64,000 bases of DNA from Mesostigma viride. Taxonomy: Eukaryota > Streptophyta > Mesostigmatophyceae > Mesostigmatales > Mesostigmataceae. The notes under the pieces were generated by a model that ran no database searches, was not told the DNA's origin, and was given only the letters and a program-made list of their open reading frames with translations. The position numbers and the translations under genes are program-made. Location: the NCBI GenBank assembly GCA_009746045.1, contig RPFO01000028.1:7501-71500 (forward strand), read 5' to 3'. Positions within the stretch are counted from its first letter, which is position 1. Every line of letters starts with the position of its first letter. This document shows positions 679 through 60,928 of this stretch, one piece after another.

Positions 679-3600
679 ATGGATTTGCCCGGCAATCAAT
701 CTGTGAAACCCGCGAATTCCGGGACTTGGACGCTCAACAACGTCGCGTCTTTGGTTTCCCCACCATTTTTGAAAACCCGAGCAGCGGATGACGTCGATCG
801 ATTGCGAGGGACGGCAAACAGTCTGCCTTGTCTTTTGCTCAATAGAGCTTGCAACGTGACGACTTCTAATCCCCGCTCTGAGGCAGCAGTAGAACGAGCT
901 ATCTCAGTGGACAACATTTGCAGGAGTGATCTTACACGTTTGAGCACAGCTTTTTGCGAATGTTTAGTAGCTGCATCTGTGCTGCCTGGCGAGGTTGTGA
1001 CCATATGTATGCCCAATGTGGCCGAATTCGCTCCAGCTTTCCTGGGAACGGCATTTGCTCGAGCAATTGCAGCACCCTTGGACCCTGCGTGTCCTCCTCG
1101 CGAGTTCGAGTTCAGTATATCCGCATCTGGATCTCGTGTACTGGTCCTAGTCGCAGGAGATGTGCGCACGCAGGAGCTTCAAGGCATTGCTCAGCGAATG
1201 GGCATGTCAGTGTGCTGTGTCAAACTCGAGATCGAGCCACAAGCCATGGGTGGCAAGGAAGCGTGCCATCTGCACACATCCTGGTTGAGTCGAGCAGAAC
1301 CCTGGCCCCATGCAGAAAACAATGCGCTCTCGTCAGGCATGCATCCCATTGAGAGGCTTTGCTCTGAGGATGACGTGGTCCTTCTGCTGCAGATGCCAAG
1401 CATGGCGAACGGTGAACCTATGCTGGAGCGTGTCACCCATGGTCAACTGGTCCGCCATGCCGTCAGGCTGGCCGAACTTTACGACCTCACCAGGCATGAC
1501 ACCACCATGCTTTTGATGCCCTTCTCCCACGCCGGTGGCCTGGTCGCCACCTTTCTGGCATCCTTTGTGGCAGGATGCCCCGTCCTCGTGCCTCGGCTGG
1601 CAGACGCCCCTTCCCTTTTCTCCCTGATCGCGCGGCACCGAATCAGCTGGTACGCTGCGGCGCCGGCGCTGCACCACATGCTGCTGGAGCAAGCGGAAGC
1701 CCATCCGGAGCAACTGTGGCCAGCTGGCCAGCTGCGCTTTGTCTGCTCACTTGGCGGCTCACTGGATGCCGCACAAATGGCGCGCATGAACGCCCTGCTG
1801 CGTGCACGTGTCGTCACACTGCCATCGCAGTGCGCGGGCCTGTTGCAGCTGCCAGAAGCAAGCACGCAGGTTGCAGTGCCTGTGGATGCTGCTGGTAATG
1901 AGAGACCCCATCCTCCACACGCACATGTTGCAGGCAATCCTGCAGCCAGGGTGTCAAGTGCATGCCGGGGCCTGGATACCCACTCAAGTGGGCGGACAAC
2001 ACTGACGGAGGAAGCTGCGGCCAACGTAGAAAAGGATCCCCTGGGATGCCCTGCTGAAGAATTGGGTGGTCAGGTGGGCCCGCGTGATGTTCTCGAGGCC
2101 AGGCTACAAGAGATTGTGCAGGACTTGCTGGGGGCAAGCCAGCCAGTGAGTGTGCTGGCTAATTTCTTCCACTTCGGCATGAGCTTGGCGGCTACAGTGA
2201 GATTGGCATCGGTGATAGGACAGCAGTTCCGTGATGTCATCCCAGGTGCAGATTGCATGCAGGTGGCAACCGTGTTGACGCATGCCAGCATAGCTGGGCT
2301 GGCTGAGGCGCTTCGCCAAGGGTGCGGGACGAGGCCAGCGCTGGCAAGTGAGCAGACGCAATCAATCCACCATGGACAACCCTCACCACGCAGTCACTCA
2401 TCGCCAGTCTCTTTTGGCCAGGAGCAAATGCTAGCATTACACGAGCTGGACCCAACCAGCCCTGCCTACAACATGAGCATCTGGTGGAGTGTGGCGGGCC
2501 ATGTGGATGTCAACAGATTGCGGCAGAGCATTCAGGTGGTTGTAGGGCGCCACGATGTGCTCCGCTGCATCTTTGCCTCAAACCCCGATGTACCCCCAGG
2601 TCACTTGGGTACTGGCTGCCAGCTGGCTGTTCCAGCCGCCGATTTCACAGTGCCCTGCAAAGTGTGGGATTGCCGACGGGAACCCGGGAAAGCTGGGCAG
2701 GCTAAGGATGAGCTCCTGCAGGCATGGGCAGCGAGGCCATTCGACCTGTACAGCGGGCCTCTGCTGCGCGTGCTCCTGCTCATCAAGAGTGATGTGGCTG
2801 CCAGCCTAGTGGTGAGCATGCACCACTCCGTGGGTGATGGTCCGTCCAGGGAGCTACTGGGTCGAGAGCTGTCTGAATGCTACTCGGCCTTGAGTGAGGG
2901 CCGGCCACCGTGCTTGCCCCTACTACCAGTGCAGTACAGTGACTATGCGTTGTGGCAGCGGCGTTGGTTGGAAGAGTCGGGGGAGATGGCGGCCCAGCTG
3001 ACATACTGGAAGGGCCACCTGGCAGATGTGCCCCAACTCCTGGAACTACCGACCGACAAGCCGAGGCCGAGGGTGCAGAGCTTTGCTGGTGGCTCTGTGC
3101 ATGTGAGGTTGGATGAGGGGCTGGTCCAAGGCCTGAGGGCTGTGGGGGCGCAGCACGGTGCGACTTTTTTGATGGTGCTGACAGCATTATGGGCGGCTCT
3201 GCTGGGCCGTTGCAGCCAGCAGGATAGGGTTGTGGTGGGCACGCCCTGGAATGGGCGCAGCAAAGCCGAGGTGCAGCACCTCATCGGGTATTTCATCAAC
3301 CCGCTGGCCCTCTGTGTGGATGTGGATGGTGCGCTGCCCTTCTCACGCATCGTGCAGCATGTGCGCGATGTGGTCCTGACCGCCATGGAACATGCGGACG
3401 CGCCCTTCCACAAGGTGGTGGAGGCTGTTGGTTCAACCGGGGTGGTTGGCCACAACCCCATCTTCCAATCCATGGTGGTGCCCAACGATTTTGCGGATGG
3501 AAACCCCTTGCCCTTGGGTTCCGACTGCCTGCTACACCCTCAATTTGTGCAGCAAGGCAGCTCCACCTCAAAGGTGGATGTCTCCTTGGTGCTCACCGGA

Positions 3601-6600
3601 GACCCTGGCTCTGCTGACCAGCTGCTTCTGCTCGAGTACCGGACGGACCTGTGGTGTGAGGCCAGCATGCAGCGGCTTGGCCAGCAGCTGGTGTGCCTGG
3701 CCAGCAGCGCCGTGGCATCCCCCGAGACGCCGGTGGGCCGCCTGCCGATGATGACCGAGGCAGAGCGCAGGCGGGTGGTGGAGGAATGGAACGCAACAGA
3801 CACGGCTTTTGCTTGTGCTGGCAAGTGCTTGCACGAGCTGTTTGACGAGCAGGTGTCTAGCACGCCGGACCACGTGGCGGTTGAGACGGGGACGGAGCGC
3901 GTGACCTACCGTGAGCTGCAGCAAAGGGCGGACGCCTTGGCTTGCTGTTTGCGGGATGCCGGCATGGTGGTAGGTGGCAGAGTTGGCCTGTGCCTCAAGG
4001 GCTGTGCGGAGATGGTGGTGGGTATGCTGGCCATCCTCAAGGCAGGGTGTGCGTACGTGCCGCTGGACCCCGAGTACCCAGCTGAACGCGCGCAGGGTAT
4101 GCTGGAGGATGCTGACGTCAGCATCCTCCTCACAAGACCGTACCAGCCACCCACTTGGGGTGCGGACACGTTCGGCCACTTGAAGCAGCTGGAAGTGCCG
4201 CTGACCCCTGCCTACGCCCCTGACCTTCCTGCACAAAAGCGCGTCATTCACCGCAAGGTGTTCCCCACCGACCTTGCCTATGTGCTCTTCACATCAGGCA
4301 CCACTGGCCGTCCCAAGGGTGTCATGGTGGAGCACCGCAACGTGTGCAACCTGGTGGCATGCGTGATTGACAGATGGCAGCTGGACGGCAGCAGCCGCGT
4401 GCTGCAACTTGCCAATCCCAGTTTTGATGCGTCGGTGGCCGAGGTGTTCGGGACACTGGCCGCTGGAGGGACCCTGGTCGTGCACCCGCCTGGGTCCGAC
4501 CTGCAAGACTCGCTTCGCCACGCCACCTGTGCCTTTGTCGTTCCTTCCGTCCTCTCCGTGTTCAACCCTGCGCACTTCCCGGGCCTGTCCACCATCTGCA
4601 TCGGGGGAGAGATGGTGCCCCTGCACATGGCAACCAGCTGGGCGGCGGGCAGGCGCTGTCTCAACGGCTACGGCCCCACGGAATGCTGCGTCTTTGCCAC
4701 CATGGGGCAGATGATAGCCGAGGACCAATCAGTCTCAATAGGTGGCCCACTCCCAAATGTGCGGGCCTACGTGCTGGATGCCTACCTTCAACCGACACCC
4801 ATCGGGGTACCAGGGGAGCTGTACATTGGCGGTGCAGGCGTGGCAAGGGGCTATGCCAACCGAGACGACCTGACCAAGGAGAAATTCCTGGACAACCCAT
4901 TTGCGGCGGGCAGGTTGTATCGAACTGGAGACCTGGCCAGGTGGCTGCCTGATGGCCGGCTGCAGTGCTTGGGGCGTGTGGACCGGCAGGTAAAACTTAG
5001 CGGTGTACGCATCGAGTTGGGTGAGGTAGAGGGCGTGCTGGAGGCCTGCCCAGGGGTGGCCAAGGCGGTGGCCATTCTGCAGGATGTGGGCCGTAGCACT
5101 GATAACCCTGGCTTGTCCAGGAAACATCTGGTGGCCTATGTGTGCCCTGCCAATGTCCAGGTGGATGCGTTGATGGAAGCAGCTCAACGCAAGCTCCCCA
5201 GCTACATGGTTCCCTCGGCGGTGGTGGCCCTGGAGAGGTTTCCGGTGACCATCTCGGGCAAGGTGGACTCGAGGGCACTTCCCCCAGTGGATCTGAGTAC
5301 CAGCGGCGGTCGCGAGTATGTAGCTCCTCGGAACGTGTACGAGGCGCGTGTACAGGCTGTGTGCCAAGACGTGCTGGGTGTGGCGTCGCTGAGTGTGCTG
5401 GCGAGTTTCCACAAGTTTGGCATCAACTCGCTGATGGCCATGGCACTTGTTCACCAGATGCGCGAGCGACTGGCTGAGTTCCCTGGCGCGGGGGAAGGCC
5501 TGCGGGTGACCACGGTGTTGTCACACCCAAGCGTTGCGGAGCTGGCAGCGGCGATGACATGTGGGAGGCAGGTGACGCGGGCCCATGCGGTGGAGCCACC
5601 ATTGCAGCCCTTCCATGGAGACATGCCCACTGGCATACTGCCTCCCGTCTCGTATGGCCAGGAGCAGATGCTGGCATTACACGAGCTGGACCCGACCAGC
5701 CCTGCCTACAACATGGGACTCTGGTGGAGTGTGGTTGGCCATGTGGATGTCGACATATTGCGGCAGAGCATGCAGGTGGTGGTGGGACGACATGAAGCGC
5801 TTCGGACCCATTATGCGATGCCAGCAATTCAGGCAGCTTTCCAGGGTGCACCAGGGGCTGTCCAGGTGGTTGTGCCTCCTGGTGACTTTGTCCTCCCATT
5901 TGAGGTGGTGGATGCAGGGGATGGCGACCAAGGGCTGTGGGCCGCACTCCACAAGGAGGCCTCGACGCCTTTCGACCCGTACACAGGGCCCCTGGTGCGC
6001 TGCCTGCTGGTAAAGAGGGGTGACCGTTCCAGTGCCCTCATGGTGAATATGCACCATTCAGTGAGTGATGGCCTCTCAGGGGTGCTGCTCATGCGTGAGC
6101 TCTGCCACAGCTACTCATCAATTTTGAAAGGTGGCGAGTTGTGCTTGCCCCCGTTACCTGTGCAGTACAGTGACTATGCGTTGTGGCAGCGGCGTTGGTT
6201 GGAAGAGTCGGGGGAGATGGCTGCCCAGCTGGAATACTGGAAGGTTCAGTTAGCAGACACGCCCCAACTCCTGGAACTGCCGACCGACAAGCCGAGGCCG
6301 AGGGTGCAGTCCTTTAAAGGTTACCGGCTGGAATTCACCCTGGAAAGGAGGGTGGTTCAGGTGCTGAAGAAGCTCGCAAGGGATTGTGGCGCGACCTTCT
6401 TCATGGTGATGCTGACTCTTTGGGCGGCTCTGCTGGGCCGTTGGAGCCGGCAGGATAAGGTGGTGGTGGGCACACCCTGGAATGGGCGCAACAAGTCAGA
6501 GGTGCAGCACCTGATCGGGTATTTCATCAACCCGCTGGCCCTCTGTGTGGATGTTGATGGCACGCTGCCCTTCTCACTTATGGTGCAGCATGTGCGCGAT

Positions 6601-9600
6601 GTGGTCCTGGGCGCCATGGAACATGCGGAGGCGCCCTTTCACAAGGTGGTGGAGGCTGTGGGGGCAACAGGCAGCGTGAGTGGCAACCCCATCTTCCAGT
6701 CCATGATCATGCCCAACGAAATGGTTGGCATGACTGAGTTGGCACTTGGGCCAGATGCTCGCATCATTCCGGGTCGTCATATCAAGCGCCACGGCTCTTC
6801 CAAGGTGGATGTGAGCCTTGCCCTCTGTGGTGAGTCACAGACGGGCAACCTGACTCTGCTGCTTGAGTACCGGACGGACCTGTGGTGTGAGGCCAGCATG
6901 CAGCGGCTTGGCCAGCAGCTGGTGTGCCTGGCCAGCAGCGCCGTGGCATCCCCCGAGACGCCGGTGGGCCGCCTGCCGATGATGACCGAGGCCGAGCGCA
7001 GGCGGGTGGTGGAGGAATGGAACGCGACAGACACGGCCTTTGCTTGTGCTGGCAGGTGCTTGCACGAGCTGTTTGACGAGCAGGTGTCTCGCACGCCGGA
7101 CCACGTGGCGGTTGAGACGGGGACGGAGCGCGTGACCTACCGTGAGCTGCAGCAAAGGGCGGACGCCTTGGCTTGCTGTTTGCGGGATGCCGGCGTGGTG
7201 GTAGGTGGCAGAGTTGGCCTGTGCCTCAAGGGCTGTGCGGAGATGGTGGTGGGTATGCTGGCCATCCTCAAGGCAGGGTGTGCGTACGTGCCGCTGGACC
7301 CCGAGTACCCAGCTGAACGCGCGCAGGGTATGCTGGAGGATGCTGACGTCAGCATCCTCCTCACAAGACCGTACCAGCCACCCACTTGGGGTGCGGACAC
7401 GTTCGGCCACTTGAAGCAGCTGGAAGTGCCGCTGACCCCTGCCTACGCCCCTGACCTTCCTGCACAAAAGCGCGTCATTCACCGCAAGGTGTTCCCCACC
7501 GACCTGGCCTACGTGCTCTTCACATCAGGCACCACTGGCCGTCCCAAGGGTGTCATGGTGGAGCACCGCAATGTGTGCAACCTGGTGGCATGCGTGATTG
7601 ACAGATGCCAGCTGGACGGCAGCAGCCGCGTGCTGCAGCTGACCAGCCCCAGCTTCGATGTGTCGGTGGCCGAGGTGTTCGGGACACTGGCCGCTGGAGG
7701 GACCCTGGTCGTGCACCCGCCTGGGTCCGACCTGCAAGACTCGCTTCGCCACGCCACCTGTGCCTTTGTCGTTCCTTCCGTCCTCTCCGTGTTCAACCCT
7801 GCGCACTTCCCGGGCCTGTCCACCATCTGCATCGGGGGAGAGATGGTGCCCCTGCACATGGCAACCAGCTGGGCGGCGGGCAGGCGCTGTCTCAACGGCT
7901 ACGGCCCCACGGAATGCTGCGTCTTTGCCACCATGGGGCAGATGATAGCCGAGGACCAATCAGTCTCAATAGGTGGCCCACTCCCAAATGTGCGGGCCTA
8001 CGTGCTGGATGCCTACCTTCAACCGACACCCATCGGGGTACCAGGGGAGCTGTACATTGGCGGTGCAGGCGTGGCAAGGGGCTATGCCAACCGAGACGAC
8101 CTGACCAAGGAGAAATTCCTGGACAACCCATTTGCGGCGGGCAGGTTGTATCGAACTGGAGACCTGGCCAGGTGGCTGCCTGATGGCCGGCTGCAATGCT
8201 TGGGTCGCTTGGACCGGCAGGTGAAACTTAGCGGTGTACGCATCGAGTTGGGTGAGGTAGAGGGCGTGCTGGAGGCCTGCCCAGGGGTGGCCAAGGCGGT
8301 GGCCATTCTGCAGGATGTGGGCCGTAGCACTGATAACCCTGGCTTGTCCAGGAAACATCTGGTGGCCTATGTGTGCCCTGCCAATGTCCAGGTGGATGCG
8401 TTGATGGAAGCAGCTCAACGCAAGCTCCCCAGCTACATGGTTCCCTCGGCGGTGGTGGCCCTGGAGAGGTTTCCGGTGACCATCTCGGGCAAGGTGGACT
8501 CGAGGGCACTTCCCCCAGTGGATCTGAGTACCAGCGGCGGTCGCGAGTATGTAGCTCCTCGGAACGTGTACGAGGCGCGTGTACAGGCTGTGTGCCAAGA
8601 CGTGCTGGGTGTGGCGTCGCTGAGTGTGCTGGCGAGTTTCCACAAGTTTGGCATCAACTCGCTGATGGCCATGGCACTTGTTCACCAGATGCGCGAGCGA
8701 CTGGCTGAGTTCCCTGGCGCGGGGGAAGGCCTGCGGGTGACCACGGTGTTGTCACACCCAAGCGTTGCGGAGCTGGCAGCGGCGATGACATGTGGGAGGC
8801 AGGTGACGCGGGCCCATGCGGTGGAGCCACCATTGCAGCCCTTCCATGGAGACATGCCCACTGGCATACTGCCTCCCGTCTCGTATGGCCAGGAGCAGAT
8901 GCTGGCATTACACGAGCTGGACCCGACCAGCCCTGCCTACAACATGGGACTCTGGTGGAGTGTGGTTGGCCATGTGGATGTCGACATATTGCGGCAGAGC
9001 ATGCAGGTGGTGGTGGGACGACATGAAGCGCTTCGGACCCATTATGCGATGCCAGCAATGCAGGCAGCTTTCCAGGGTGCACCAGGGGCTGTCCAGGTGG
9101 TTGTGCCTCCTGGTGACTTTGTCCTCCCATTTGAGGTGGTGGATGCAGGGGATGGCGACCAAGGGCTGTGGGCCGCACTCCACAAGGAGGCCTCGACGCC
9201 TTTCGACCCGTACACAGGGCCCCTGGTGCGCTGCCTGCTGGTAAAGAGGGGTGACCGTTCCAGTGCCCTCATGGTGAATATGCACCATTCAGTGAGTGAT
9301 GGCCTCTCAGGGGTGCTGCTCATGCGTGAGCTCTGCCACAGCTACTCATCAATTTTGAAAGGTGGCGAGTTGTGCTTGCCCCTGTTACCTGTGCAGTACA
9401 GTGACTATGCGTTGTGGCAGCGGCGTTGGTTGGAAGAGTCGGGGGAGATGGCTGCCCAGCTGGAATACTGGAAGGTTCAGTTAGCAGACGCGCCCCGACT
9501 CCTGGAACTGCCGACCGACAAGCCGAGGCCAAGGGTGCAGTCCTTTAAAGGTGACCGCCTGGAATTCACCCTGGAAAGGAGGGTGGTTCAGGTGCTGAAG

Positions 9601-12600
9601 AAGCTCGCACGGGATTGTGGCGCGACCTTCTTCATGGTGATGCTGACTCTTTGGGCGGCTCTGCTGGGCCGTTGGAGCCGGCAGGATAAGGTGGTGGTGG
9701 GCACACCCTGGAATGGGCGCAACAAGTCAGAGGTGCAGCACCTGATCGGGTATTTCATCAACCCGCTGGCCCTCTGTGTGGATGTTGACGGCACGCTGCC
9801 CTTCTCACTTATGGTGCAGCATGTGCGCGATGTGGTCCTGGGCGCCATGGAACATGCGGAGGCGCCCTTTCACAAGGTGGTGGAGGCTGTGGGGGCAACA
9901 GGCAGCGTGAGTGGCAACCCCATCTTCCAGTCCATGATCATGCCCAACGAAATGGTTGGCATGACTGAGTTGGCACTTGGGCCAGATGCTCGCATCATTC
10001 CGGGTCGTCATATCAAGCGCCACGGCTCTTCCAAGGTGGACGTTAGCCTTGCCCTCTGTGGTGAGTCACAGACGGGCAACCTGACTCTGCTGCTTGAGTA
10101 CCGGACGGACCTATGGTGTGAGTCTAGCATGCAGCGGCTTGGCCAGCAGCTGGTATGCCTGGCCAGCAGCGCCGTGGCATCCCCCGAGACGCCGGTGGGC
10201 CGCCTGCCGATGATGACCGAGGCGGAGCGCATGCAGTTGATAGAATCATCGCAGCTGAAGCAGTGGTTGCAAGCGCCTCCCTCCCCCCTCACCCTTTGTG
10301 ATCTGTGGGACTGCCAGGTGGCCACACGCCCAGCCGACATGGCGGCACGCTGCCAAGAAGTGGCCCTCTCATTTTCCCAGCTGGACGGCGCCGCGGGCTT
10401 GCTGTCTGCGGCGCTGGCTGCTAGCGGCGTGGGCGCAGAGATGCGCGTGGCGATTGTCATGGAGCGGTCGCTCCTTATTCTGGCCGCCATGCTGGGTGTG
10501 CTCAAGGCTGGCGCGTGCTACGTGTCCCTTGACCCTGCCAACCCGCCCGCCTACCTGGCCAGCCTGCTGGATGCCGCGTCCATCACAGCGATCCTGTGGG
10601 ACCGCGCTGTTTGCGGGCGGTTGCAGGGCATGGCCGGGCTGGAGCAAACCACGTGCTTTGTCGTGGACGACCTCGTGGCAGATGCCAGTACAGCATCAGG
10701 CACAGGGGGAGGAAGGGGTCTTAACCAGGACTTCTCAGTAGGTCCGTTCATCCACGCTGACCAGGCGGCGATCTGCCTGTTCAGCTCCGGCAGCTCCGGC
10801 GTGCCCAAGGGGGTCGAGTTGACCCACCGCGCGCTCGTGGCCAAGCTGGAGGGCTACTGGGCAGCGTGCCCCTTTGCGCCGGGCGAGGCCTGCCTGGCGC
10901 GCACCACGGTGTCGTTTGTGGACCACACGCTGGAGATCCTCGGGTCGCTCCTGCATGGCGTGCCCGTGGTGCTGGCGACTGCGCAGGAGGCGCGCGACCC
11001 CGCGTCCCTGCTGCACGTGGTGGCGTCCGCCCACGTCACGCGGCTCGTGGTCGTCCCGTCGCTGCTGCAGGCGATGCTGGCGGACACGCAGGAGGATGAG
11101 CGCGTGCGCGCCACGTGGCGCGAGGGGCCCCTCTCGCTCGTCATCAGCAGTGGCGAGCCGCTCCCCCTGTCCCTGGCGCAGGCGTTCCTGGCGGCCGCGG
11201 GCGACCACTGCCAGCTGGTCAACCTGTACGGGTCCACGGAGACGTGCGGCGATGCCACATGGGCGCCTGTGACGCGCGCCATGGTGGCCGCGGGGCACGT
11301 CACGGTTGGCCACCCACTCCTGCGCGCCGTCACGCTGGTGCTCGATGACCACGGCCAGCTGGCGCCGCCGGGCGTCCCGGGGGAGCTCTGCGTGGGCGGC
11401 GGCGTGGTTGCGCGTGGGTACCTCCACCAGCCGGAGCTGACCGCGTCGCGCTTCACGCGCATACCCATTGGAGACCTGCTGGGGGGGGATGCCGCCGCGC
11501 TGCCAGCGTCCAGGTTTCCTCAGCATCCCGTATCAGACATGTTCACCCCAAGCCCCGATGAGGCTGCTAGCGGCAAGGACGACCGCCCCTCGCTCGTCCT
11601 GTACCGCACGGGGGACTGTGCGCGGCTGCTGCCGTGTGGAGACCTGGCGCTGATGGGCCGGCTGGACCACCAGGTCAAGGTGAGGGGCGTGCGCCTGGAG
11701 CTGGGCTTTGTGGAGCAGGCCATGGCGCGGCTGCCAGGCGTGGCCGCCGCTGGGGCCGTGCTGGTGCCCGCCACCCAGCAGGGCCTCGCGGACGCAGCGG
11801 GCCATGACACCCTGGTGGCGGTGGTAAGCCCCCGGCGGCTGCTCCCGGAGGCACTGCTGGCGGCCCTGGGGCAGCAACTGCCGCAGTACGCGCTCCCCGC
11901 ACGCATCCTGTGTGAGGACGAGCTGCCGCGCCTCATCAGCGGCAAGCTTGACCGCCGCAAGCTGCTGGCCATGGCGGCGGCGGAGATGGCGGAGATGCGG
12001 CGCGTGGGGACGGGCGGGGGCGGCCGTGAGGCGCCCACATCGCACGCGGCGGTCAGGATGGACCCGCTCGAGGCCAAGCTGGCTGCGCTGTGGGGGAAGG
12101 TGCTGCGCCTGCCCAGCGTGTCCGTGTTCGACGACTTCTTCAACATCGGCGGCAACTCACTGGTGGCGGTGCAGCTGCAGAGAGAGCTGGCCAGGGAGAT
12201 GGTCAGGGACCCTGCGCTCGCCCCGCTGGCGTCTGGCGACCGGCACCTGTCGGTGTTCAGCCACCGCACCATCAGCAGCATGGCTGCCGAGGCCGCCAGC
12301 GCGCTGGGCAGGACGGCAGGCAGGGGTGCTAGTGGCACCAGCGACAATGGCCACGCCTTTAGGGGTGCTGCTGCCGCCTCATCCCTGATGTTCAGGCCGC
12401 AGTCCTTGTTTGCGCTCTTGCTGGGGCCAGCTTCATCATCCAGTGGTGCAGAGCCAGCCACGTCGGGTGAGGAGCATGCTCTGTCGGGCGTGCTGGAGGT
12501 GGTCACTTCCAACCTGCGCTTCCTGTGGAGCTTCTCCGTCGTCATGCTCCACTTTGGCCACTGCGGGGGCCAGAACCTGCGCTGCTTCCAGAACACGCAG

Positions 12601-13728
12601 CTGGCCGGGCTGTGGGCGCCGCACGACAACACCTCGCTCGCCAACTTTGTGCCCAGGGCGTTCCAGGGGGGTGTCCTGGGCCTGTCCATCTTGTCAGGGA
12701 TGGGAGCCGCGTCAGGCGGCATGCGTCCATCCCTGCGCACGCCCGTGCTGGCGGTCATACTGGCACTGCTCATGGAGTTTGGGGTATCCCGCGCGTTTGA
12801 CGACCTCGTGCGGTCATCGCCGCAAGAGCACTTCTCCACCACGGCCCACCTGTGGGGCCTGTGGGCGCTGGCCTTCAACCAGCTGCTGCTGTGGCTGTGT
12901 GTTGGCTTGTGGCGCAGCCACACACGCCGGGAGGGTCCCAGTTACCGAAATGGTGGTGTTGTGCTCTTGCTACTGGCCGCTGGCACGGTGCAATTCCTGC
13001 TCCCCATTCTCTTCGCATTGCTGTGGCCCCCGGCTTCAGCGGCGGGTGTTCGTGGGATGTGGTTTGGTCCCTGGGGCATGCACCAGTTGGGCTGGGAGCC
13101 ACTGGGACCGCGCGTTCTCACTTCTGCTTTGCCCTTTGCCATCGGGTATGCGTACAACAGCCAGATCACTCGCCTGGTGCACACGGTTCGGTCGCATGTG
13201 TGGCTTCGCGTGGCGCTGGCAGCCATCTTTGTGCAACTCACGGTTCGATCCACGTTCTTCCTCGACATCCTCTCGGGGCTGGACCTGCGTTCCAGCGAGG
13301 CAGCGCGTTTCGCCACCGTCGCGGACGTGATGGCCACGTGGGAGCTCGGGTTGTGGTGGCGGGAGTGGCCGCTGAGGGTGCTGGGCTACATGGGTGCGCT
13401 AGCCGAGGATATGGTGATGGCCTTTGCGATGCTGGCCATTATGCCAGCGCTGGATGGCACGGTCACCAGGTTTGGTAGGGCCTCCCTGCCCATCTATCTT
13501 TTCCATCCCCATGTGTTGAGGCTGATGGAACCGTTCTCGTTCTGGTTGCTGCGCCAGGTGTCCTCCAACATGCCGCTCACAGTCATGTTGGAGGTCCTCC
13601 TGCCGCTCAGCTCCACGGTATGCCTGTGCCTCGCTTTTGCTGCGATGCAGCGGAGGGCACTGGGCGTCGGGAAGACTGTCCTCGGTCTGTCCATGGTGCT
13701 GCATGTCTTAAAGCGGGCTCTTGTGTAA
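679..13728 (+). CDS. Multimodular NRPS fused to a C-terminal membrane acyltransferase-3 domain
   Basis: Intronless 4,349-residue protein that should build a short peptide on carrier domains. Order by residue: degenerate AMP-ligase-like domain (~60-400); PCP (Ser502, in a shortened FGMSL motif); C1 (~576-1010, HHSVGDG at 715); A1 (~1052-1560, TSGTTGRPKG at 1205); PCP1 (Ser1584); C2 (HHSVSDG at 1792); A2 (P-loop 2282); PCP2 (Ser2661); C3 (HH at 2869); A3 (~3205-3790, SSGSSGVPKG near 3370); PCP3 (GGNSL, Ser3827); low-complexity linker; acyltransferase-3 domain (~3940-4349) with many hydrophobic segments, the R-X10-H signature (Arg3947, His3958) and a GRASLPIYLFH segment. There is no thioesterase, reductase or epimerase. 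The ATG is the first in frame, and a typical AMP-ligase N-terminus follows. I infer product release or transfer by the membrane domain. The final A-PCP-acyltransferase block is more GC-rich than the repeated modules. Confidence 0.93.
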   Translation: MDLPGNQSVKPANSGTWTLNNVASLVSPPFLKTRAADDVDRLRGTANSLPCLLLNRACNVTTSNPRSEAAVERAISVDNICRSDLTRLSTAFCECLVAASVLPGEVVTICMPNVAEFAPAFLGTAFARAIAAPLDPACPPREFEFSISASGSRVLVLVAGDVRTQELQGIAQRMGMSVCCVKLEIEPQAMGGKEACHLHTSWLSRAEPWPHAENNALSSGMHPIERLCSEDDVVLLLQMPSMANGEPMLERVTHGQLVRHAVRLAELYDLTRHDTTMLLMPFSHAGGLVATFLASFVAGCPVLVPRLADAPSLFSLIARHRISWYAAAPALHHMLLEQAEAHPEQLWPAGQLRFVCSLGGSLDAAQMARMNALLRARVVTLPSQCAGLLQLPEASTQVAVPVDAAGNERPHPPHAHVAGNPAARVSSACRGLDTHSSGRTTLTEEAAANVEKDPLGCPAEELGGQVGPRDVLEARLQEIVQDLLGASQPVSVLANFFHFGMSLAATVRLASVIGQQFRDVIPGADCMQVATVLTHASIAGLAEALRQGCGTRPALASEQTQSIHHGQPSPRSHSSPVSFGQEQMLALHELDPTSPAYNMSIWWSVAGHVDVNRLRQSIQVVVGRHDVLRCIFASNPDVPPGHLGTGCQLAVPAADFTVPCKVWDCRREPGKAGQAKDELLQAWAARPFDLYSGPLLRVLLLIKSDVAASLVVSMHHSVGDGPSRELLGRELSECYSALSEGRPPCLPLLPVQYSDYALWQRRWLEESGEMAAQLTYWKGHLADVPQLLELPTDKPRPRVQSFAGGSVHVRLDEGLVQGLRAVGAQHGATFLMVLTALWAALLGRCSQQDRVVVGTPWNGRSKAEVQHLIGYFINPLALCVDVDGALPFSRIVQHVRDVVLTAMEHADAPFHKVVEAVGSTGVVGHNPIFQSMVVPNDFADGNPLPLGSDCLLHPQFVQQGSSTSKVDVSLVLTGDPGSADQLLLLEYRTDLWCEASMQRLGQQLVCLASSAVASPETPVGRLPMMTEAERRRVVEEWNATDTAFACAGKCLHELFDEQVSSTPDHVAVETGTERVTYRELQQRADALACCLRDAGMVVGGRVGLCLKGCAEMVVGMLAILKAGCAYVPLDPEYPAERAQGMLEDADVSILLTRPYQPPTWGADTFGHLKQLEVPLTPAYAPDLPAQKRVIHRKVFPTDLAYVLFTSGTTGRPKGVMVEHRNVCNLVACVIDRWQLDGSSRVLQLANPSFDASVAEVFGTLAAGGTLVVHPPGSDLQDSLRHATCAFVVPSVLSVFNPAHFPGLSTICIGGEMVPLHMATSWAAGRRCLNGYGPTECCVFATMGQMIAEDQSVSIGGPLPNVRAYVLDAYLQPTPIGVPGELYIGGAGVARGYANRDDLTKEKFLDNPFAAGRLYRTGDLARWLPDGRLQCLGRVDRQVKLSGVRIELGEVEGVLEACPGVAKAVAILQDVGRSTDNPGLSRKHLVAYVCPANVQVDALMEAAQRKLPSYMVPSAVVALERFPVTISGKVDSRALPPVDLSTSGGREYVAPRNVYEARVQAVCQDVLGVASLSVLASFHKFGINSLMAMALVHQMRERLAEFPGAGEGLRVTTVLSHPSVAELAAAMTCGRQVTRAHAVEPPLQPFHGDMPTGILPPVSYGQEQMLALHELDPTSPAYNMGLWWSVVGHVDVDILRQSMQVVVGRHEALRTHYAMPAIQAAFQGAPGAVQVVVPPGDFVLPFEVVDAGDGDQGLWAALHKEASTPFDPYTGPLVRCLLVKRGDRSSALMVNMHHSVSDGLSGVLLMRELCHSYSSILKGGELCLPPLPVQYSDYALWQRRWLEESGEMAAQLEYWKVQLADTPQLLELPTDKPRPRVQSFKGYRLEFTLERRVVQVLKKLARDCGATFFMVMLTLWAALLGRWSRQDKVVVGTPWNGRNKSEVQHLIGYFINPLALCVDVDGTLPFSLMVQHVRDVVLGAMEHAEAPFHKVVEAVGATGSVSGNPIFQSMIMPNEMVGMTELALGPDARIIPGRHIKRHGSSKVDVSLALCGESQTGNLTLLLEYRTDLWCEASMQRLGQQLVCLASSAVASPETPVGRLPMMTEAERRRVVEEWNATDTAFACAGRCLHELFDEQVSRTPDHVAVETGTERVTYRELQQRADALACCLRDAGVVVGGRVGLCLKGCAEMVVGMLAILKAGCAYVPLDPEYPAERAQGMLEDADVSILLTRPYQPPTWGADTFGHLKQLEVPLTPAYAPDLPAQKRVIHRKVFPTDLAYVLFTSGTTGRPKGVMVEHRNVCNLVACVIDRCQLDGSSRVLQLTSPSFDVSVAEVFGTLAAGGTLVVHPPGSDLQDSLRHATCAFVVPSVLSVFNPAHFPGLSTICIGGEMVPLHMATSWAAGRRCLNGYGPTECCVFATMGQMIAEDQSVSIGGPLPNVRAYVLDAYLQPTPIGVPGELYIGGAGVARGYANRDDLTKEKFLDNPFAAGRLYRTGDLARWLPDGRLQCLGRLDRQVKLSGVRIELGEVEGVLEACPGVAKAVAILQDVGRSTDNPGLSRKHLVAYVCPANVQVDALMEAAQRKLPSYMVPSAVVALERFPVTISGKVDSRALPPVDLSTSGGREYVAPRNVYEARVQAVCQDVLGVASLSVLASFHKFGINSLMAMALVHQMRERLAEFPGAGEGLRVTTVLSHPSVAELAAAMTCGRQVTRAHAVEPPLQPFHGDMPTGILPPVSYGQEQMLALHELDPTSPAYNMGLWWSVVGHVDVDILRQSMQVVVGRHEALRTHYAMPAMQAAFQGAPGAVQVVVPPGDFVLPFEVVDAGDGDQGLWAALHKEASTPFDPYTGPLVRCLLVKRGDRSSALMVNMHHSVSDGLSGVLLMRELCHSYSSILKGGELCLPLLPVQYSDYALWQRRWLEESGEMAAQLEYWKVQLADAPRLLELPTDKPRPRVQSFKGDRLEFTLERRVVQVLKKLARDCGATFFMVMLTLWAALLGRWSRQDKVVVGTPWNGRNKSEVQHLIGYFINPLALCVDVDGTLPFSLMVQHVRDVVLGAMEHAEAPFHKVVEAVGATGSVSGNPIFQSMIMPNEMVGMTELALGPDARIIPGRHIKRHGSSKVDVSLALCGESQTGNLTLLLEYRTDLWCESSMQRLGQQLVCLASSAVASPETPVGRLPMMTEAERMQLIESSQLKQWLQAPPSPLTLCDLWDCQVATRPADMAARCQEVALSFSQLDGAAGLLSAALAASGVGAEMRVAIVMERSLLILAAMLGVLKAGACYVSLDPANPPAYLASLLDAASITAILWDRAVCGRLQGMAGLEQTTCFVVDDLVADASTASGTGGGRGLNQDFSVGPFIHADQAAICLFSSGSSGVPKGVELTHRALVAKLEGYWAACPFAPGEACLARTTVSFVDHTLEILGSLLHGVPVVLATAQEARDPASLLHVVASAHVTRLVVVPSLLQAMLADTQEDERVRATWREGPLSLVISSGEPLPLSLAQAFLAAAGDHCQLVNLYGSTETCGDATWAPVTRAMVAAGHVTVGHPLLRAVTLVLDDHGQLAPPGVPGELCVGGGVVARGYLHQPELTASRFTRIPIGDLLGGDAAALPASRFPQHPVSDMFTPSPDEAASGKDDRPSLVLYRTGDCARLLPCGDLALMGRLDHQVKVRGVRLELGFVEQAMARLPGVAAAGAVLVPATQQGLADAAGHDTLVAVVSPRRLLPEALLAALGQQLPQYALPARILCEDELPRLISGKLDRRKLLAMAAAEMAEMRRVGTGGGGREAPTSHAAVRMDPLEAKLAALWGKVLRLPSVSVFDDFFNIGGNSLVAVQLQRELAREMVRDPALAPLASGDRHLSVFSHRTISSMAAEAASALGRTAGRGASGTSDNGHAFRGAAAASSLMFRPQSLFALLLGPASSSSGAEPATSGEEHALSGVLEVVTSNLRFLWSFSVVMLHFGHCGGQNLRCFQNTQLAGLWAPHDNTSLANFVPRAFQGGVLGLSILSGMGAASGGMRPSLRTPVLAVILALLMEFGVSRAFDDLVRSSPQEHFSTTAHLWGLWALAFNQLLLWLCVGLWRSHTRREGPSYRNGGVVLLLLAAGTVQFLLPILFALLWPPASAAGVRGMWFGPWGMHQLGWEPLGPRVLTSALPFAIGYAYNSQITRLVHTVRSHVWLRVALAAIFVQLTVRSTFFLDILSGLDLRSSEAARFATVADVMATWELGLWWREWPLRVLGYMGALAEDMVMAFAMLAIMPALDGTVTRFGRASLPIYLFHPHVLRLMEPFSFWLLRQVSSNMPLTVMLEVLLPLSSTVCLCLAFAAMQRRALGVGKTVLGLSMVLHVLKRALV
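3640..10225 (+). repeat. 3,231-bp tandem duplication of an A-PCP-C unit inside the NRPS gene
   Basis: Positions 3661, 6892 and 10123 begin the same sequence (AGCATGCAGCGGCTTGGC nearby), giving a constant period of 3,231 bp or 1,077 codons. Units 3640-6870 and 6871-10101 are nearly identical at DNA level over the adenylation, carrier and condensation domains. The third start runs only to about 10,225, where identity stops abruptly and a different adenylation domain begins. In the roughly 500-residue A domains I count only about eight amino-acid differences. This points to recent unequal exchange or continuing gene conversion. Confidence 0.93.
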
Positions 13729-15613: not shown

Positions 15614-28107
<12,494 letters not shown>

Positions 28108-34424: not shown

Positions 34425-36074
34425 AATTAAATTAAATTAAATTATAACATGCCTCCGTGGGGAGGTCATGTAGCACATATTTCATGATGGATGGGGTGGA
34501 GGAAGCCGCGTGATCGAACTATCCTAACTCTATCTAGAAAATCCTAACTGCACTACTCATCAAAACGCCTCCTCCGCTTGGGGGGAGGTGGCTTGCCCAC
34601 AGGGTCGGGCGTGTGCGCCTTGACAATCTTCTTCCACCGCGTCTTGTCCTGCATGGCAGTCCAAAGACGGGAGAGAGAGTGGATGCGGTGCTCAAACTGG
34701 GCTGGGACCACGAGGTCGTCCAGCAGCATCTGAACGTAGTTGGTGACAGGTTTCCCGACCCTTTTGGGAATGTCCTTGGGGCCAGGCCAGGTCAGAATGT
34801 GCCGCCCTGGCTGTCCAAGCCGCTGGGGGCCGGCCAGACCAAGGGTGGTGTCGACCTGGCTGGTGCGGGCAAGGTGTCCTACAAATGCTATCCTACGCTG
34901 TCTAATCTCGTCCGAAACACGAGGCATGCCATGATACAGAGACTCTGATGACGGGCGCTCGGAAAAACCTACATTAAGGACCTGCCGGAGCATCCGGTAA
35001 ACTGTGCCGTCGAGCCGAGCTGCCAGTTTGGGTGTGATTGTCCACGCCTCGGCGCCATACGTGAGCACCGTGAGGACGAGGACCTTGAAGAGCATGCGCT
35101 TGCGGTGCCCGTTCAGGCCCTTCGAGCGCCAGTAGGGTGTGAGCGAACGGAGCTTGGCCCAGGCAAGGCCGATGCGGGTGTCCACATCGTCGGCGGTGTC
35201 AGGAAGCCAGCTCCCCAGCAGCTTGAAGCGGTCGCGGAACGGGACCTCCGTCCCGTCGAGCAGGCGCGGCAGCGGTGGTTTACTGGATGCTCCTATCACC
35301 ATCGCCTCAGTTTTGACACTGATCTCCAGCCCCACCGCCCGCGCCTCCAGGCCCAGGCAGTCCAGCCAGGTCTGAATGTGCTCGGGGCTCTCGATGAGGG
35401 TGGTATCATCCGCATAAATCAGGTCGGCAAGGCGGTAACCCGGTCTAACCCCGCCGTGCTCTTTCACGTTAAGGATGTCCAAGCCTGGCTCGAACCCCTT
35501 AAGAGCAGTAAAGCGCGCACGTGCCCGGCGCATGACGTGATCCACGACAATAATGAACAGGTATGGGGACAGGACACAACCTTGCCACACCCCATGGTGA
35601 AGGGGGAATGGTGGAGTGGTGCCCTCCGCAGTCCGCACTACTGCCTGTGAACCCTCATACAGACGGCGAATGGCAGCAATAAACGCAGGTGGTACCCGAT
35701 CCAGAGCTAGGATGGCCCAAAGAGCCTCCCAGAGAACCGTGTCAAAGGCTTTGATATAGTCAACAAAAATGAAGACCAGCGGCAAACTGTCAGGGGGAAG
35801 TCGACGCACCTCCTCCATCAACCGGCGCGCGACAAACACAGCCATGACAGTGTTACGACCACTACGGAAACCCATCTGAGACTCACCCAGGTGTGGGTCC
35901 AGCGCGGCGCGGAGCCTGTGCAGCATCATGCGCATGAAGACCTTCAGCGCGGCGCTCTGGAGGCAGACACCCCGGTAGTTACCGGGGTCAGCAGCAGAGC
36001 CCTTCTTGTACAGCATGACGCGGATGGCCGTCTGCCACTCAGCAGGCGGAGGCTCGTCCCCCTGGATGTTGCAT
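34425..36074 (-). mobile_element. 5'-truncated LINE with reverse transcriptase and 3' tail
   Basis: The element runs on the minus strand from its truncated 5' end near 36074 to an AT-rich (TTTAA)n tail near 34425. Its 3' UTR ends with the hairpin CCTCC (34452-34456), loop GTGG, GGAGG (34461-34465). The 3' UTR matches the tail-to-tail copies at 32 kb and the end of this window at 63.85-64 kb. No endonuclease domain is left. Confidence 0.8.
34553..36065 (-). pseudogene. LINE ORF2 reverse transcriptase, N-terminally truncated
   Basis: Non-LTR retrotransposon polymerase that copies element RNA into a nicked target. The frame is open from about 36065, before the first ATG at 36016, so the present N-terminus is a truncation edge. 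Counting from that Met: NYRGVCLQSAALK, MGFRSGRNTVMAVF, FVDYIKAFDTV (Asp86), GVWQGCVLSPYLF (the usual R of GxRQG is W) and YADD (201-204). The three catalytic aspartates are present. The C-terminal part has thumb and accessory sequence with RRRIAFVGHLAR-like and basic KPPPPKRRRR segments. A degenerate second copy lies at 61.2-61.7 kb. It is L1-like in overall look, but the clade cannot be fixed by eye. Confidence 0.85.
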
Positions 36075-57884: not shown

Positions 57885-58691
57885 GGCGGGAGTGGCGAGG
57901 TATGTGGCTGACCAGCGTTCCTGGCAGGCCCGTGACTTTCAGGTTTGGTGGTGCTGGGTGGTAGTGTAGTGGATAAACGCAATTGTAACGGATTGCAAGT
58001 GCCAGGGTCAGTAATTGCATGCACGAGCAACGCCAGCGCTCCAGGTGTAACACGCCTGCCTGCTGACCTGTAATATCCTAGTGGCTGTCAACGCATGAGG
58101 CCGACAGGGATCTGCGTGTCCGTCCGCCTGGCCTTTTGCTGGGGCGTTGTCCTCTGCGGGAAAATCTCAGCGCCCTAGTGGCGAATGGCAGAGCTAATGC
58201 CAGCCATCCTGCAGTGCAGCAGCGGTCAGCCGGGATTAATTTTACTGCCAACAGTGCACGTGTGGTGCCGAACGCCCGTCGTGAATACGTGAATCCTCAA
58301 GAATAATGCCCTCCAGACCAGCTGCTCCATGGGCGCACGCGTTACCTATACTGCTCAGAGCACGCAACATCTGCTGAGGGAACATCTTACGCTTGCTGCA
58401 TCATGTTGCCAGATGAAGACGTAGGGGAACTTCCATGCCATTGTTTATGCAATACCTGTACTGGCCTGTAATTGCCCCTTGCCATTTTGCGACTGTCGCA
58501 ACTGCTCTCGATCAACGTCTCGATGCCTCCTGCCGAGAAGAGAAGAAGCGATGTTGCTGGATGCCCTCGGAAAGGAACCATAGGCAAGGAACTATAAAGG
58601 TGCATTAACTGTTTTGGAGGGCACAATGACTGTGCAAGGTACGTAACAGCGTGAAGCTTCCATCCCATCACTAGTGCTGCATTCAGCAAGG
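57885..58691. promoter_or_regulatory. Divergent region between CSP41a and the PfkB-like gene
   Basis: 807 bases between outward-facing start codons. No gene or clear core promoter element is visible. A possible upstream mini-exon for the PfkB-like gene (ATG at 58625 followed by a GTACGT donor) was considered but has no matching evidence. Confidence 0.4.
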
Positions 58692-60928
58692 ATGATGTCA
58701 ATTAACGTGAAGGGCTGCCCTGAACGCACGGTTTTGCGGACTAAATTCCAGCCACCCGCTCGGTGCCGCAGCATCCGACCCCGGAAAGCACCCGCCCGTT
58801 GCCAGGCTGGCACCTCAGCGTCCCCATCCGACGCATTCCTGTGCTTTAACTGGATAACGGACGACATTGTCAGGTACGACGGCAAGACGATGATGGCCAG
58901 CCCAGGTGGCGGCGGGTTTCAGACTGCCATTGGCGCCGCGCTGTCCTGCCCCGGCCTCACCTGCATTCTCTCCGCCCGGGTCGGGTCTGACTGGCAAGCC
59001 GACGTGTTCAACCGCCATCTCGACGGCTTCGGAATCACGCCGTACTTGGTGCAAGTGCCCGACGCGCACACGCCACGAGCGTGGCAGCTGCTAGAAGAGA
59101 CCGGAAAAAGGACCCAGGTGTGGCGGACGGACGCGCCTGCCTCTCAGCGCATGCTCCACCTGGGAAAGGAGATGATCCCACCTGAAAGGAGTATCGGCGC
59201 AGCGCACGTGTCCTCGCATCCTGCCGACCCGCCGACGTCCTTTGTGGCTGAGCTCAGGGCGCGGGGCGTCAAAACGGTCGGCCACGAGGTGTACACCAAC
59301 AACACACATCCGATTGGGGGGGGGGCTATAAATAGACTCGTCACGTGCGCTGACTTGTTCAGCCCCAACTTGCTCGAGCTCGAATGCCTGACCCGGGGGG
59401 GAGAATTCGACCCCCAGACCATCGCCAAGGAGCTTCTTTCCAAGTCCCTGGAGCAAATGGCCGCGGGCGCGTGGCAGCTCGCCACCTGTCACTCCCACCC
59501 CGTGGTCATCCGGGCGGGCGAGTTTGGCGCCTTTTCCGCAGTCCCCGGGCGCGCCTATGTCCTGCACGTGCCAGCTGTCTTGGCAGCTGCTGACGTGGTG
59601 GACACCACCGGGTGTGGGAACGCCTTCCTAGGCGCGTTCGAGGCCAGCCATTATATCTGCAGGCGCTCGGAGGAGGAGTCCCTGGCGTGGGGCGCGGCAG
59701 CATCCAGCGTCATGGCGCAGGTATAACACGTGCATTGGCAGCAAGCGGTTGTGTGGTGTCCTTGTACAGCTTGTACGGTGCAGTTACATGTATGCATCAC
59801 ATAGGCTAAGCTTTATAATGATACGTCACATGGCACAATAGGACTGTTCCTATTGTGCCCGTACATTTTTTAAATAGATGTGTGCTACTACTTGCGCTAT
59901 TCAGGGTGGCTGTCTCCTCTTATATGTGTGTAATAATAGAATTACCGGTCAAAATCACTTTGTCTTTGCGTGTAATTACTTTGCGACCCCAAAACAAGGT
60001 GAAATGTATAGTTTGCGACCCAAATTGAAGGCAAAGTTTTAGGTTGCGAGCCGGTCGACTTGTTTGTGGTCAGTGGCTTGGGTCTCACCGACTTTATATC
60101 CCTTGGCCCCCTCTCGATGTAACCCAACTACCAACCTGAGTAATTGGATTGATCCATTGGGTAGCACTGATTATAATAGATAGGCTTGGGGCTATGCGGG
60201 GCGGCGCAGGCGCGACACAGTAACATTTGAACTTTGCGACCCAAAATGAAGCCCATAAATGGCAGTTTGCGAGGTCTATTCGCAAACGATTAGACGCAAA
60301 GTGATTTTGATCACTACGGTAGCATACAACTAGGTGAGAGACCCCATGTATGTGCATTCCTGGAGCGCAGTTACCCAGGGTTCTGTGGAGTCTGCGCTCT
60401 GCAGCACGGGTGACTTGATCCTGCGTGAGGTGTCATGAAGCGTGAAGGGGAGTCAGGAGTGTATAATGATACTAAGCATTTAGTATGCCCAACTCTTTAT
60501 ATGTGTAGTAAAGAACAAGTATATTTTGGTTCTTTTTTCTCAGGCACTCGCCCTTGTCATGGTTTATATGGGTAGTTAGCCGTTGAAACTAGTCTTTGAA
60601 CATAGATAGCCTGCATTGCCTACATTGTGTGCCCTCCTCTCCGCATGTGTGGGAATGCGTCCCGGGTTAATGCCGACCATTCGTGATCTATCAGCCTGGC
60701 TGGCCGTTGCACTTGTCCCAGCACTCCAATTTTTTTGTCTACACTGTTTTCGCTGTTGTGCTTGCTCGATTTTTCATCTCGCAGTCCTGGGGGGTGCCCT
60801 CCGTCCACTCTCCATCCGACCGGCACCTCTTGGAGGCATTGGTGGCCCAGCGGGCGGAGGCCGTGTCGAGCCGTGTACGCAAGTATACCACTGTAGATTT
60901 CGAGAAACACATAAGCGAGGTCATGTGA
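58692..60928 (+). CDS. PfkB-family carbohydrate-kinase-like protein, 2 exons
   Basis: Exons 58692-59720 and 60785-60928 join at codon 343 (CAG|GTATAA … GCAG|TCC) to give 390 residues. An Arg/Pro/Ser-rich N-terminus (~1-45) may be an organelle transit peptide. The ribokinase-fold core contains SPGGGGFQTAIGAA (substrate-side glycines), LSARVGSDW, FSPNLLELE, and the family signature near the C-terminus as DTTGCGNAFLGAF (304-316). In active PfkB kinases that motif reads DTxGAGD with a catalytic Asp; here it is Asn310. Mak32-like proteins are a possible relative. The second exon supplies the final helix. The first six codons of the open frame precede the ATG and begin with GTG, so 58692 is the start. 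Substrate unknown; it may be a non-canonical or inactive member. Confidence 0.8.
59949..60310. mobile_element. MITE-like element in the PfkB-like intron
   Basis: Perfect 14-bp terminal inverted repeats TCAAAATCACTTTG (59949-59962) and CAAAGTGATTTTGA (60297-60310) enclose 362 bp without coding potential. Inside, TTTGCGACCCAAA occurs several times. No clear target-site duplication was found. Confidence 0.55.

Follow-up and report, generated by a model that had tools for sequence, protein, structure and literature searches.

A nonribosomal peptide synthetase fused to a polytopic domain likely related to acyltransferase-3 proteins recurs in the genome of the alga Mesostigma viride

We analysed a 64,000-nucleotide stretch of the Mesostigma viride genome (GenBank assembly GCA_009746045.1, contig RPFO01000028.1, positions 7,501 to 71,500 of the forward strand), referred to here as the window. 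It contains a gene for a nonribosomal peptide synthetase (NRPS) that ends in a membrane domain. The window is free of ambiguous bases, and the 4,349-codon open reading frame (ORF) has no internal stop. Adenylation (A), peptidyl carrier protein (PCP) and condensation (C) domains follow one another along the protein in the order A0-PCP0-C1-A1-PCP1-C2-A2-PCP2-C3-A3-PCP3, succeeded by a linker and the membrane domain (Table 1). Pfam recognizes four AMP-binding, three Condensation and three PP-binding stretches, together with one weak first PCP. The HHxxxD motif is present in C1 to C3, core motifs A3, A5, A7 and A8 are present in the A1, A2 and A3 domains, and GxxS is present in three PCPs. The original prediction, made from the DNA sequence alone, described carrier, condensation and adenylation motifs in repeated order, and these resolve into three intact C-A-PCP modules by Pfam and motif scan. 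The closest solved structures by sequence are those of linear gramicidin synthetase. The prediction also spoke of a green alga; Mesostigma viride is a tiny freshwater alga, but it belongs to the streptophytes.

A polytopic C-terminus does follow the last PCP, as had been proposed, but the first module is not intact. A transmembrane check gives 11 hydrophobic peaks within residues 3938-4349, compatible with about 10 transmembrane (TM) helices. The Arg3947/His3958 pair and the segment GRASLPIYLFH (residues 4266-4276) were both located correctly. At the other end of the protein, a motif scan finds A0 without motifs A3, A5, A7 and A8, and PCP0 without the usual G-x-x-S spacing. In a comparison with the nearest paralog, at C2, the ratio of nonsynonymous to synonymous substitution rates (dN/dS) is 0.66 over 397 codons of A0, 0.42 for PCP0 and the rest, and 0.30 for the membrane domain. 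More distant paralogs carry A0-like stretches with recognizable acyl-ligase core motifs (TSGTTGAPK in L034, positions 2700-5300; GYGQTETG and TGD in L032, positions 1-2600), and A0 of the window copy therefore resembles a decayed starter acyl-ligase.

Table 1. Features of the NRPS gene and its surroundings, in window coordinates.
Feature	Position	Strand	Basis
Whole NRPS ORF, 4,349 residues, one unbroken frame	679..13728	+	ATG to TAA read
A0, degenerate N-terminal AMP-binding domain	925..1815	+	PF00501 9.7e-30, profile 25-316 of 384
PCP0, weak carrier, altered Ser motif HFGMSL	2101..2274	+	PF00550 16.7 bits, cut-off 20.8
C1 condensation domain, HHSVGD	2398..3774	+	PF00668 3.3e-76
A1 adenylation domain	3829..5280	+	Pfam match and core motifs
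PCP1	5347..5553	+	PF00550
C2 condensation domain	5644..7005	+	PF00668 8.6e-79
A2 adenylation domain, 98.6% identity to A1	7060..8511	+	
PCP2	8578..8784	+	PF00550
C3 condensation domain	8875..10239	+	PF00668 4.4e-79
A3, terminal adenylation domain, separate lineage, code VDLVVSLGDK	10315..11946	+	PF00501 4.6e-65
PCP3, terminal carrier, FNIGGNSL, Ser3827	12076..12198	+	PF00550 and motif
Ser/Gly/Ala-rich linker, PCP3 to membrane domain	12259..12489	+	Sequence
Polytopic AT3/TmAT-like C-terminus: R3947-x10-H3958, HLW 4057-4059, SLPIY 4269-4273	12490..13725	+	
AAA_2 ATPase-like exon	19532-20617	-	3.1e-31
Reverse transcriptase ORF, retroelement	34556-36016	-	PF00078 3.1e-24
PfkB carbohydrate kinase	58674-59723	+	9.1e-12

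The central part of the protein is repetitive. Positions 3679-6978 (A1-PCP1-C2) and 6910-10209 (A2-PCP2-C3) repeat the same 3,231-base unit, and the two copies agree at 96-100% when compared in 300-base steps along about 3.3 kb. At least five C domains occur at C1846, spaced by 3,231-3,237 bases, at least three in the window and at least two at C2. Taken together, the repeated unit and the C1846 spacing suggest that the number of modules changes through tandem duplication. The length of the assembly line varies between places, and the terminal A-PCP-membrane domain arrangement recurs.

The window gene is not a one-off but a member of a family in Mesostigma viride. Across the assembly (440 Mb in 2,243 contigs), 28 places encode the membrane domain: 39 profile rows merged into 23 of them, and five more (L036-L040) each have a single exon of the domain covering profile positions of about 29-162. 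At 27 of the 28, the membrane domain is preceded on its own strand, within about 1.3 kb, by a terminal-type PCP, and for 12 of those 27 the open frame listed for the PCP is as long as that listed for the membrane domain. Most places have C domains further upstream; at L034, none was found within the 10 kb examined. No membrane domain was seen at L041, which was examined for its PCP. Since the scores at C131 and C887:2651285 are identical, some places may be haplotype duplicates, and the distinct genes may be fewer than 28. The terminal-region copy at C887:3336894-3338228 (L027, L030) is broken by several frame changes and is perhaps a pseudogene or the product of a poor consensus.

Predicted proteins show the same architecture. 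A search with the C-terminal region returned three gene models of Mesostigma viride (87-92% identity), two of which (P0002 and P0003) carry the terminal PCP and the entire membrane domain in one protein, while P0004 carries part. Four Mesvir1 proteins match assembly loci at 98.9-100% identity over 39-883 residues, counting only rows above 98.5%. These observations bear on the explanation that the fusion is a chimera, produced either by an assembly join or by two separate genes with a transcript end between PCP3 and the membrane domain. Near-identical 3,231-base repeats are a known risk for assemblers, but the junction is found at 27 places on many contigs, with one shared open frame at 12, and the two complete gene models span it; we consider a chimera very improbable. 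Its assembly-join version, which the original prediction had raised against itself, is ruled out by the 27-fold recurrence. In the P0004 model (jgi Mesvir1 1626), both the serine motif of the terminal PCP and TM1 with its R-x10-H are missing; its genomic counterpart L016 keeps TM1, so the model is probably wrong at the PCP/TM1 region. Word-based searches, with about 8,000 candidates per search chosen for the most shared five-residue words and proteins of full NRPS length not searched, returned the membrane domain from Mesostigma only (four proteins). The acyltransferase-3 (AT3) family profile PF01757 was found in none of the best 120 of 2,670 proteins matching the terminal A-PCP.

The paralogs lie on contigs as large as 12.1 Mb, and some are broken within the membrane domain in an intron-like manner. 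Both features speak against the gene belonging to the bacterial symbiont Ca. Megaira and not to the alga, an explanation that arises since a presumed Ca. Megaira contig with NRPS genes is present in the same assembly. A closed Ca. Megaira chromosome of 1,448,425 bp has been assembled from this alga (PMC9098888), and contigs C2011 (1.49 Mb, with NRPS genes) and C870, whose scores equal those of parts of C2011, are presumed to represent it. Among the symbiont loci L001-L010, the best matches to the window domains reach no more than 27-37% identity. The symbiont NRPS ends in a thioesterase (TE), and the profile search did not find the membrane domain on the presumed symbiont contigs. We give a symbiont origin almost no credence.

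The algal protein has no canonical release domain that we could detect. Pfam finds nothing after PCP3 in the window ORF, whether TE, reductase (R) or terminal C domain. Thioesterases of the PF00975 family occur at 19 places in the assembly, none of them joined to an algal NRPS place; PF07993 R domains were not searched genome-wide. Two of the 19 fall within NRPS frames of C2011 and C870 and serve as an internal control, and free PF00975 proteins are also present. In a survey of algal gene clusters, Mesostigma accounts for six of eight NRPS hits, and the text describes the hits as lacking a TE (PMC10794256); NRPSs of Haematococcus and Vitrella are also named there. The words 'membrane', 'Megaira' and 'contamina' are absent from the main text of that survey (PMC10794256), and some of the six may be of symbiont origin. 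A membrane release domain may explain why the survey's Mesostigma NRPS hits lack a TE.

We next consider the identity of the membrane domain, which the original prediction had assigned to AT3. That assignment gains support from a paralog and from profile comparison and is not evident from the window protein itself. Paralog L031, at 38-43% identity, matches PF01757 over profile positions 120-322 (8e-6, 25.6 bits, cut-off 31). For profile comparison we aligned 12 of the 28 places, leaving out the near-duplicates L014 and L032. Also outside the alignment are the partial or interrupted copies L017/L028, L018, L020-L023 and L035-L040, along with L025 (one in-frame TGA), L027/L030, the third C1106 place and the C1468 place. 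The 14 bacterial AT3s used as references were WecH and OpgC of E. coli plus 12 plasmid proteins chosen manually out of 63 hit records. An hhalign comparison of the 12-row family with this set gives a probability of 55.5% (P 1.2e-4), against 0.4% and 1.2% for two reversed controls. When forced to full length, the same alignment brings R-x10-H, the SG of TM2, HLW and YLFH into register. A hidden Markov model (HMM) built from the 14 bacterial proteins scores the window domain at 14.3 bits and its reversal at -8.7, and eight of the 12 members score above every reversed sequence. Together, the L031 match, the hhalign result and the bacterial HMM make it likely that the membrane domain is a relative, albeit a distant one, of the AT3/transmembrane acyltransferase (TmAT) superfamily. 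A single PDB sequence match obtained with the family profile, to ADAM 33, was discarded as chance (E 0.54).

Several results weigh against this assignment. Residues 3881-4349 match nothing in Pfam (E 10) or NCBIfam (E 1), and the profile search finds PF01757 absent from 11 of the 12 family members. The confident part of the hhalign comparison is confined to 49 columns around TM helix (TMH) 9, and halves of the bacterial set, which match each other at 98.4%, match the algal family at 16.6% and 5.4%. Five of the eight members that outscore the reversed sequences are the window copy and copies 88-97% identical to it; the remaining four of the 12, L031 included, do not outscore them. In the opposite direction, a family HMM run over 109 ORFs places three AT3s on top, but at no more than 9.9 bits, and the scores of most AT3s do not exceed those of unrelated ORFs. 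For the membrane domain, AlphaFold2 supplied with the homologues P0002, P0003 and P0005 reached a confidence (pLDDT) of 36.4, and the model is unusable.

Motif conservation offers a second view of the domain. Of the 27 NRPS-linked places, TMH1 was read in 14 (the window copy, L012-L016, L019, L024, L025, L026, L029, L031, L032 and L034). Its His is kept in all 14, and its Arg in 10, with Gln in three and Cys in one. The R-x10-H of the window copy, R3947 and H3958, aligns with the bacterial R-x10-H in the forced alignment. The SxxxY of TMH9 is present as S4269 and Y4273, and the Tyr is kept in 10 of 11 NRPS-linked aligned rows. Among NRPS-linked copies at 39-52% identity to the window copy, HLW is invariant, HQ is near-invariant, and the TMH1-His, TMH9-Tyr and the His of FHP are kept; HLW also occurs in all 14 bacterial references. 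G4156 aligns with the LG of AT3 proteins, within a low-confidence part of the forced alignment. Other superfamily motifs are altered. The RxxR of TMH3 is replaced by RxxxR (R4016/R4020), with at most one Arg there in the more distant rows. The DxxR of TMH1 reads SNLR, with Ser for Asp and the Arg present; the Asp is found in one of 13 readable copies (L019, DNLR). The FxxxxG of TMH2 reads LSILSG, in which the Gly is kept, and Leu replaces Phe in all 12 rows.

Across 412 codons, five comparisons with the window copy give a dN/dS of 0.18-0.30 for the membrane domain, which clearly indicates purifying selection; for PCP3 and the linker, two comparisons give 0.71 and 0.46. The combination of selection and motif retention bears on whether the domain could be a membrane anchor only, with release being hydrolytic, spontaneous or carried out by a free thioesterase, for which free PF00975 proteins are available in the assembly. 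The exception among the 28 places fits such a role: L033 (20-1639) is P0005, an annotated free-standing protein of 523 residues that has lost the Arg, His and Tyr motif residues and is possibly a regulator or an inactive relic. Versions without these residues thus exist, and four of the 14 NRPS-linked copies are without the TMH1-Arg. We nevertheless regard an anchor as distinctly unlikely, since the set of residues kept at 39-52% identity is more than an anchor seems to need and dN/dS is near 0.2 among the closer copies.

The proposed mechanism is that of a membrane-tethered NRPS. Its three intact modules would build a short peptide that, on PCP3, would end in a beta-amino acid such as beta-alanine. 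The membrane domain would draw in the peptidyl-phosphopantetheine arm of PCP3 from the cytosolic side, in place of acyl-CoA, and hand on the acyl group, with a hydroxyl or an amine as acceptor, within the membrane or at its lumenal or outer side. This acyl transfer would itself release the chain, taking the place of a thioesterase. The original prediction had likewise proposed that the peptide passes from the last PCP to a membrane or lumenal acceptor, a function compatible with the domain anatomy. We put the probability that PCP3 is the acyl donor and that the TmAT/AT3-type domain releases the peptide onto a membrane or lumenal acceptor at roughly 0.55. The specific proposal that the arm enters an AT3-type pore and that the peptide is joined to a lumenal or surface acceptor, which would constitute a new type of NRPS release, is more tentative, and we hold it at somewhat less than even odds.

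Conserved residues of TmATs mostly touch the adenosine and 4-phosphopantothenate portions of coenzyme A (CoA), with the TMH9-Tyr around the mercaptoethylamine (PMC12423673). Modelling of OafB puts the CoA 3'-phosphate at Arg14 and the thioester close to His25 (PMC9833829). A carrier-bound pantetheine has the mercaptoethylamine but no 3'-phosphate, which would leave the Arg free to vary while His and Tyr stay; the variable Arg and constant His and Tyr would thus be expected with such a donor. This argument is tempered on several sides. The window copy keeps its TMH1-Arg, so the loss of a CoA contact does not apply to it directly. The R-x10-H is described as absolutely conserved in AT3s (PMC9833829), and some of the four copies without the Arg may accordingly be inactive. 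In a crude pattern scan, six of the 14 bacterial references themselves lack RxxR, two lack R-x10-H and one has Ser for Asp; with RxxR often absent from the references, and with only the TMH1-Arg placed at the nucleotide end of CoA in the cited papers, the argument is weaker still.

The retained Arg and His of the window copy would suit a genuine AT3 that uses acyl-CoA, tailoring the peptide or its attachment while a separate enzyme releases the chain in trans. The TmATs discussed in PMC12423673 bind acyl-CoA, which favours that arrangement. It accords less well with the position of the domain behind a terminal-type PCP at 27 of the 28 places and with the absence, in four of 14 copies, of the very Arg that is modelled at the CoA 3'-phosphate, and on balance we think it unlikely. 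The fusion is real, recurrent and under selection, and most likely creates a membrane release step of the kind that transfer from PCP3 would provide.

The suggested identity of the last residue comes from the terminal A domain. We read the pocket positions by alignment to the classical ten-position scheme and obtained DAAVIIGVFK for A1, DVAVIIGVFK for A2 and VDLVVSLGDK for A3. Terminal A domains at 34-41% identity (L031, L032, L035-L040) read IDL[AF][CV][CS]LGDK; several further terminal codes are readable only in part, and the last position of L025 is Glu. A Val-Asp start and an Asp at the ninth position are typical of beta-alanine codes. The terminal A domain thus appears to have a conserved, beta-amino-acid-like code, and the probable substrate of A3 is a beta-amino acid, for example beta-alanine. 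Our literature search found no paper on beta-alanine codes of this form.

Elsewhere in the window, we identified a retroelement with a reverse transcriptase ORF downstream of the NRPS gene, an AAA_2 ATPase-like exon and a PfkB carbohydrate kinase. Pfam scans of ten of the 36 window ORFs revealed no obvious cluster partner.

The window protein can be compared with several known systems. Proteins of the AT3/TmAT superfamily (PF01757, clan CL0316; for example OafB, OpgC, WecH and HGSNAT) are likewise polytopic and share, in the same order, R-x10-H in TM1, Gly in TM2, HLW, tentatively Gly in TMH6, and SxxxY in TMH9. The window domain differs from them in being fused to an NRPS carrier, in its strong divergence with no Pfam match, and in the Ser, Leu and RxxxR substitutions given above. 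Modular NRPSs that end in TE, R or terminal C domains have the same C-A-PCP modules and a different terminal domain. The epsilon-poly-L-lysine synthetase Pls is a single-chain NRPS and an integral membrane protein, with six TM helices, a tandem of three C-like domains and a chain that grows iteratively. Pls thus resembles the window protein in combining NRPS and membrane protein in one chain, and to our knowledge it has no AT3 domain; 7wew, a 509-residue chain of Pls, was among the A-domain matches. In Ebony and ACSF4-U26, other domains at the C-terminus stand in for C domains, and we know of no membrane acyltransferase in either. Both are animal NRPS-like enzymes that activate beta-alanine (PMC10531068), an activity predicted here from the A3 code.

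The nearest functional parallel is the D-alanylation system Dlt, which offers a precedent, by analogy, for transfer from a carrier to a membrane acyltransferase. DltA loads DltC, and DltC hands D-alanine to the membrane acyltransferase DltB (PMC11035591). As proposed for the window protein, an A domain there loads a carrier that feeds a membrane acyltransferase, but Dlt consists of separate proteins, handles one amino acid and uses a membrane-bound O-acyltransferase (MBOAT) fold, whereas the window protein is multimodular, a single polypeptide and AT3-like. AT3 domains have been described in fusion with SGNH domains and with alanine racemase domains, and Eukarya have further, unspecified fusions (PMC9833829, PMC9558356); PKS-NRPS hybrids (PKS, polyketide synthase) are described from a haptophyte genome (PMC4580454). 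NRPSs and AT3 proteins are each known in kind, and their combination was not found in the sources searched; literature searches on Mesostigma NRPSs and on NRPSs with AT3 showed no report of the fusion among the matches listed, most subscription journals lying outside their reach.

Chain release decides the product of an NRPS. A membrane acyltransferase in place of a TE would mean that peptides are attached in or beyond the membrane and not freed into the cytosol. If the proposed reading is correct, this would be the first TmAT in the literature searched to be fed by a carrier protein, it would be encoded at 27 assembly places of a single early-diverging streptophyte, and donors of the AT3/TmAT superfamily would come to include carrier-bound ones. 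The alga is held in a culture collection (strain NIES-296), which makes the prediction testable. On the proposed reading, the scales or surface glycans of Mesostigma viride would perhaps be decorated with beta-alanine-terminated peptides.

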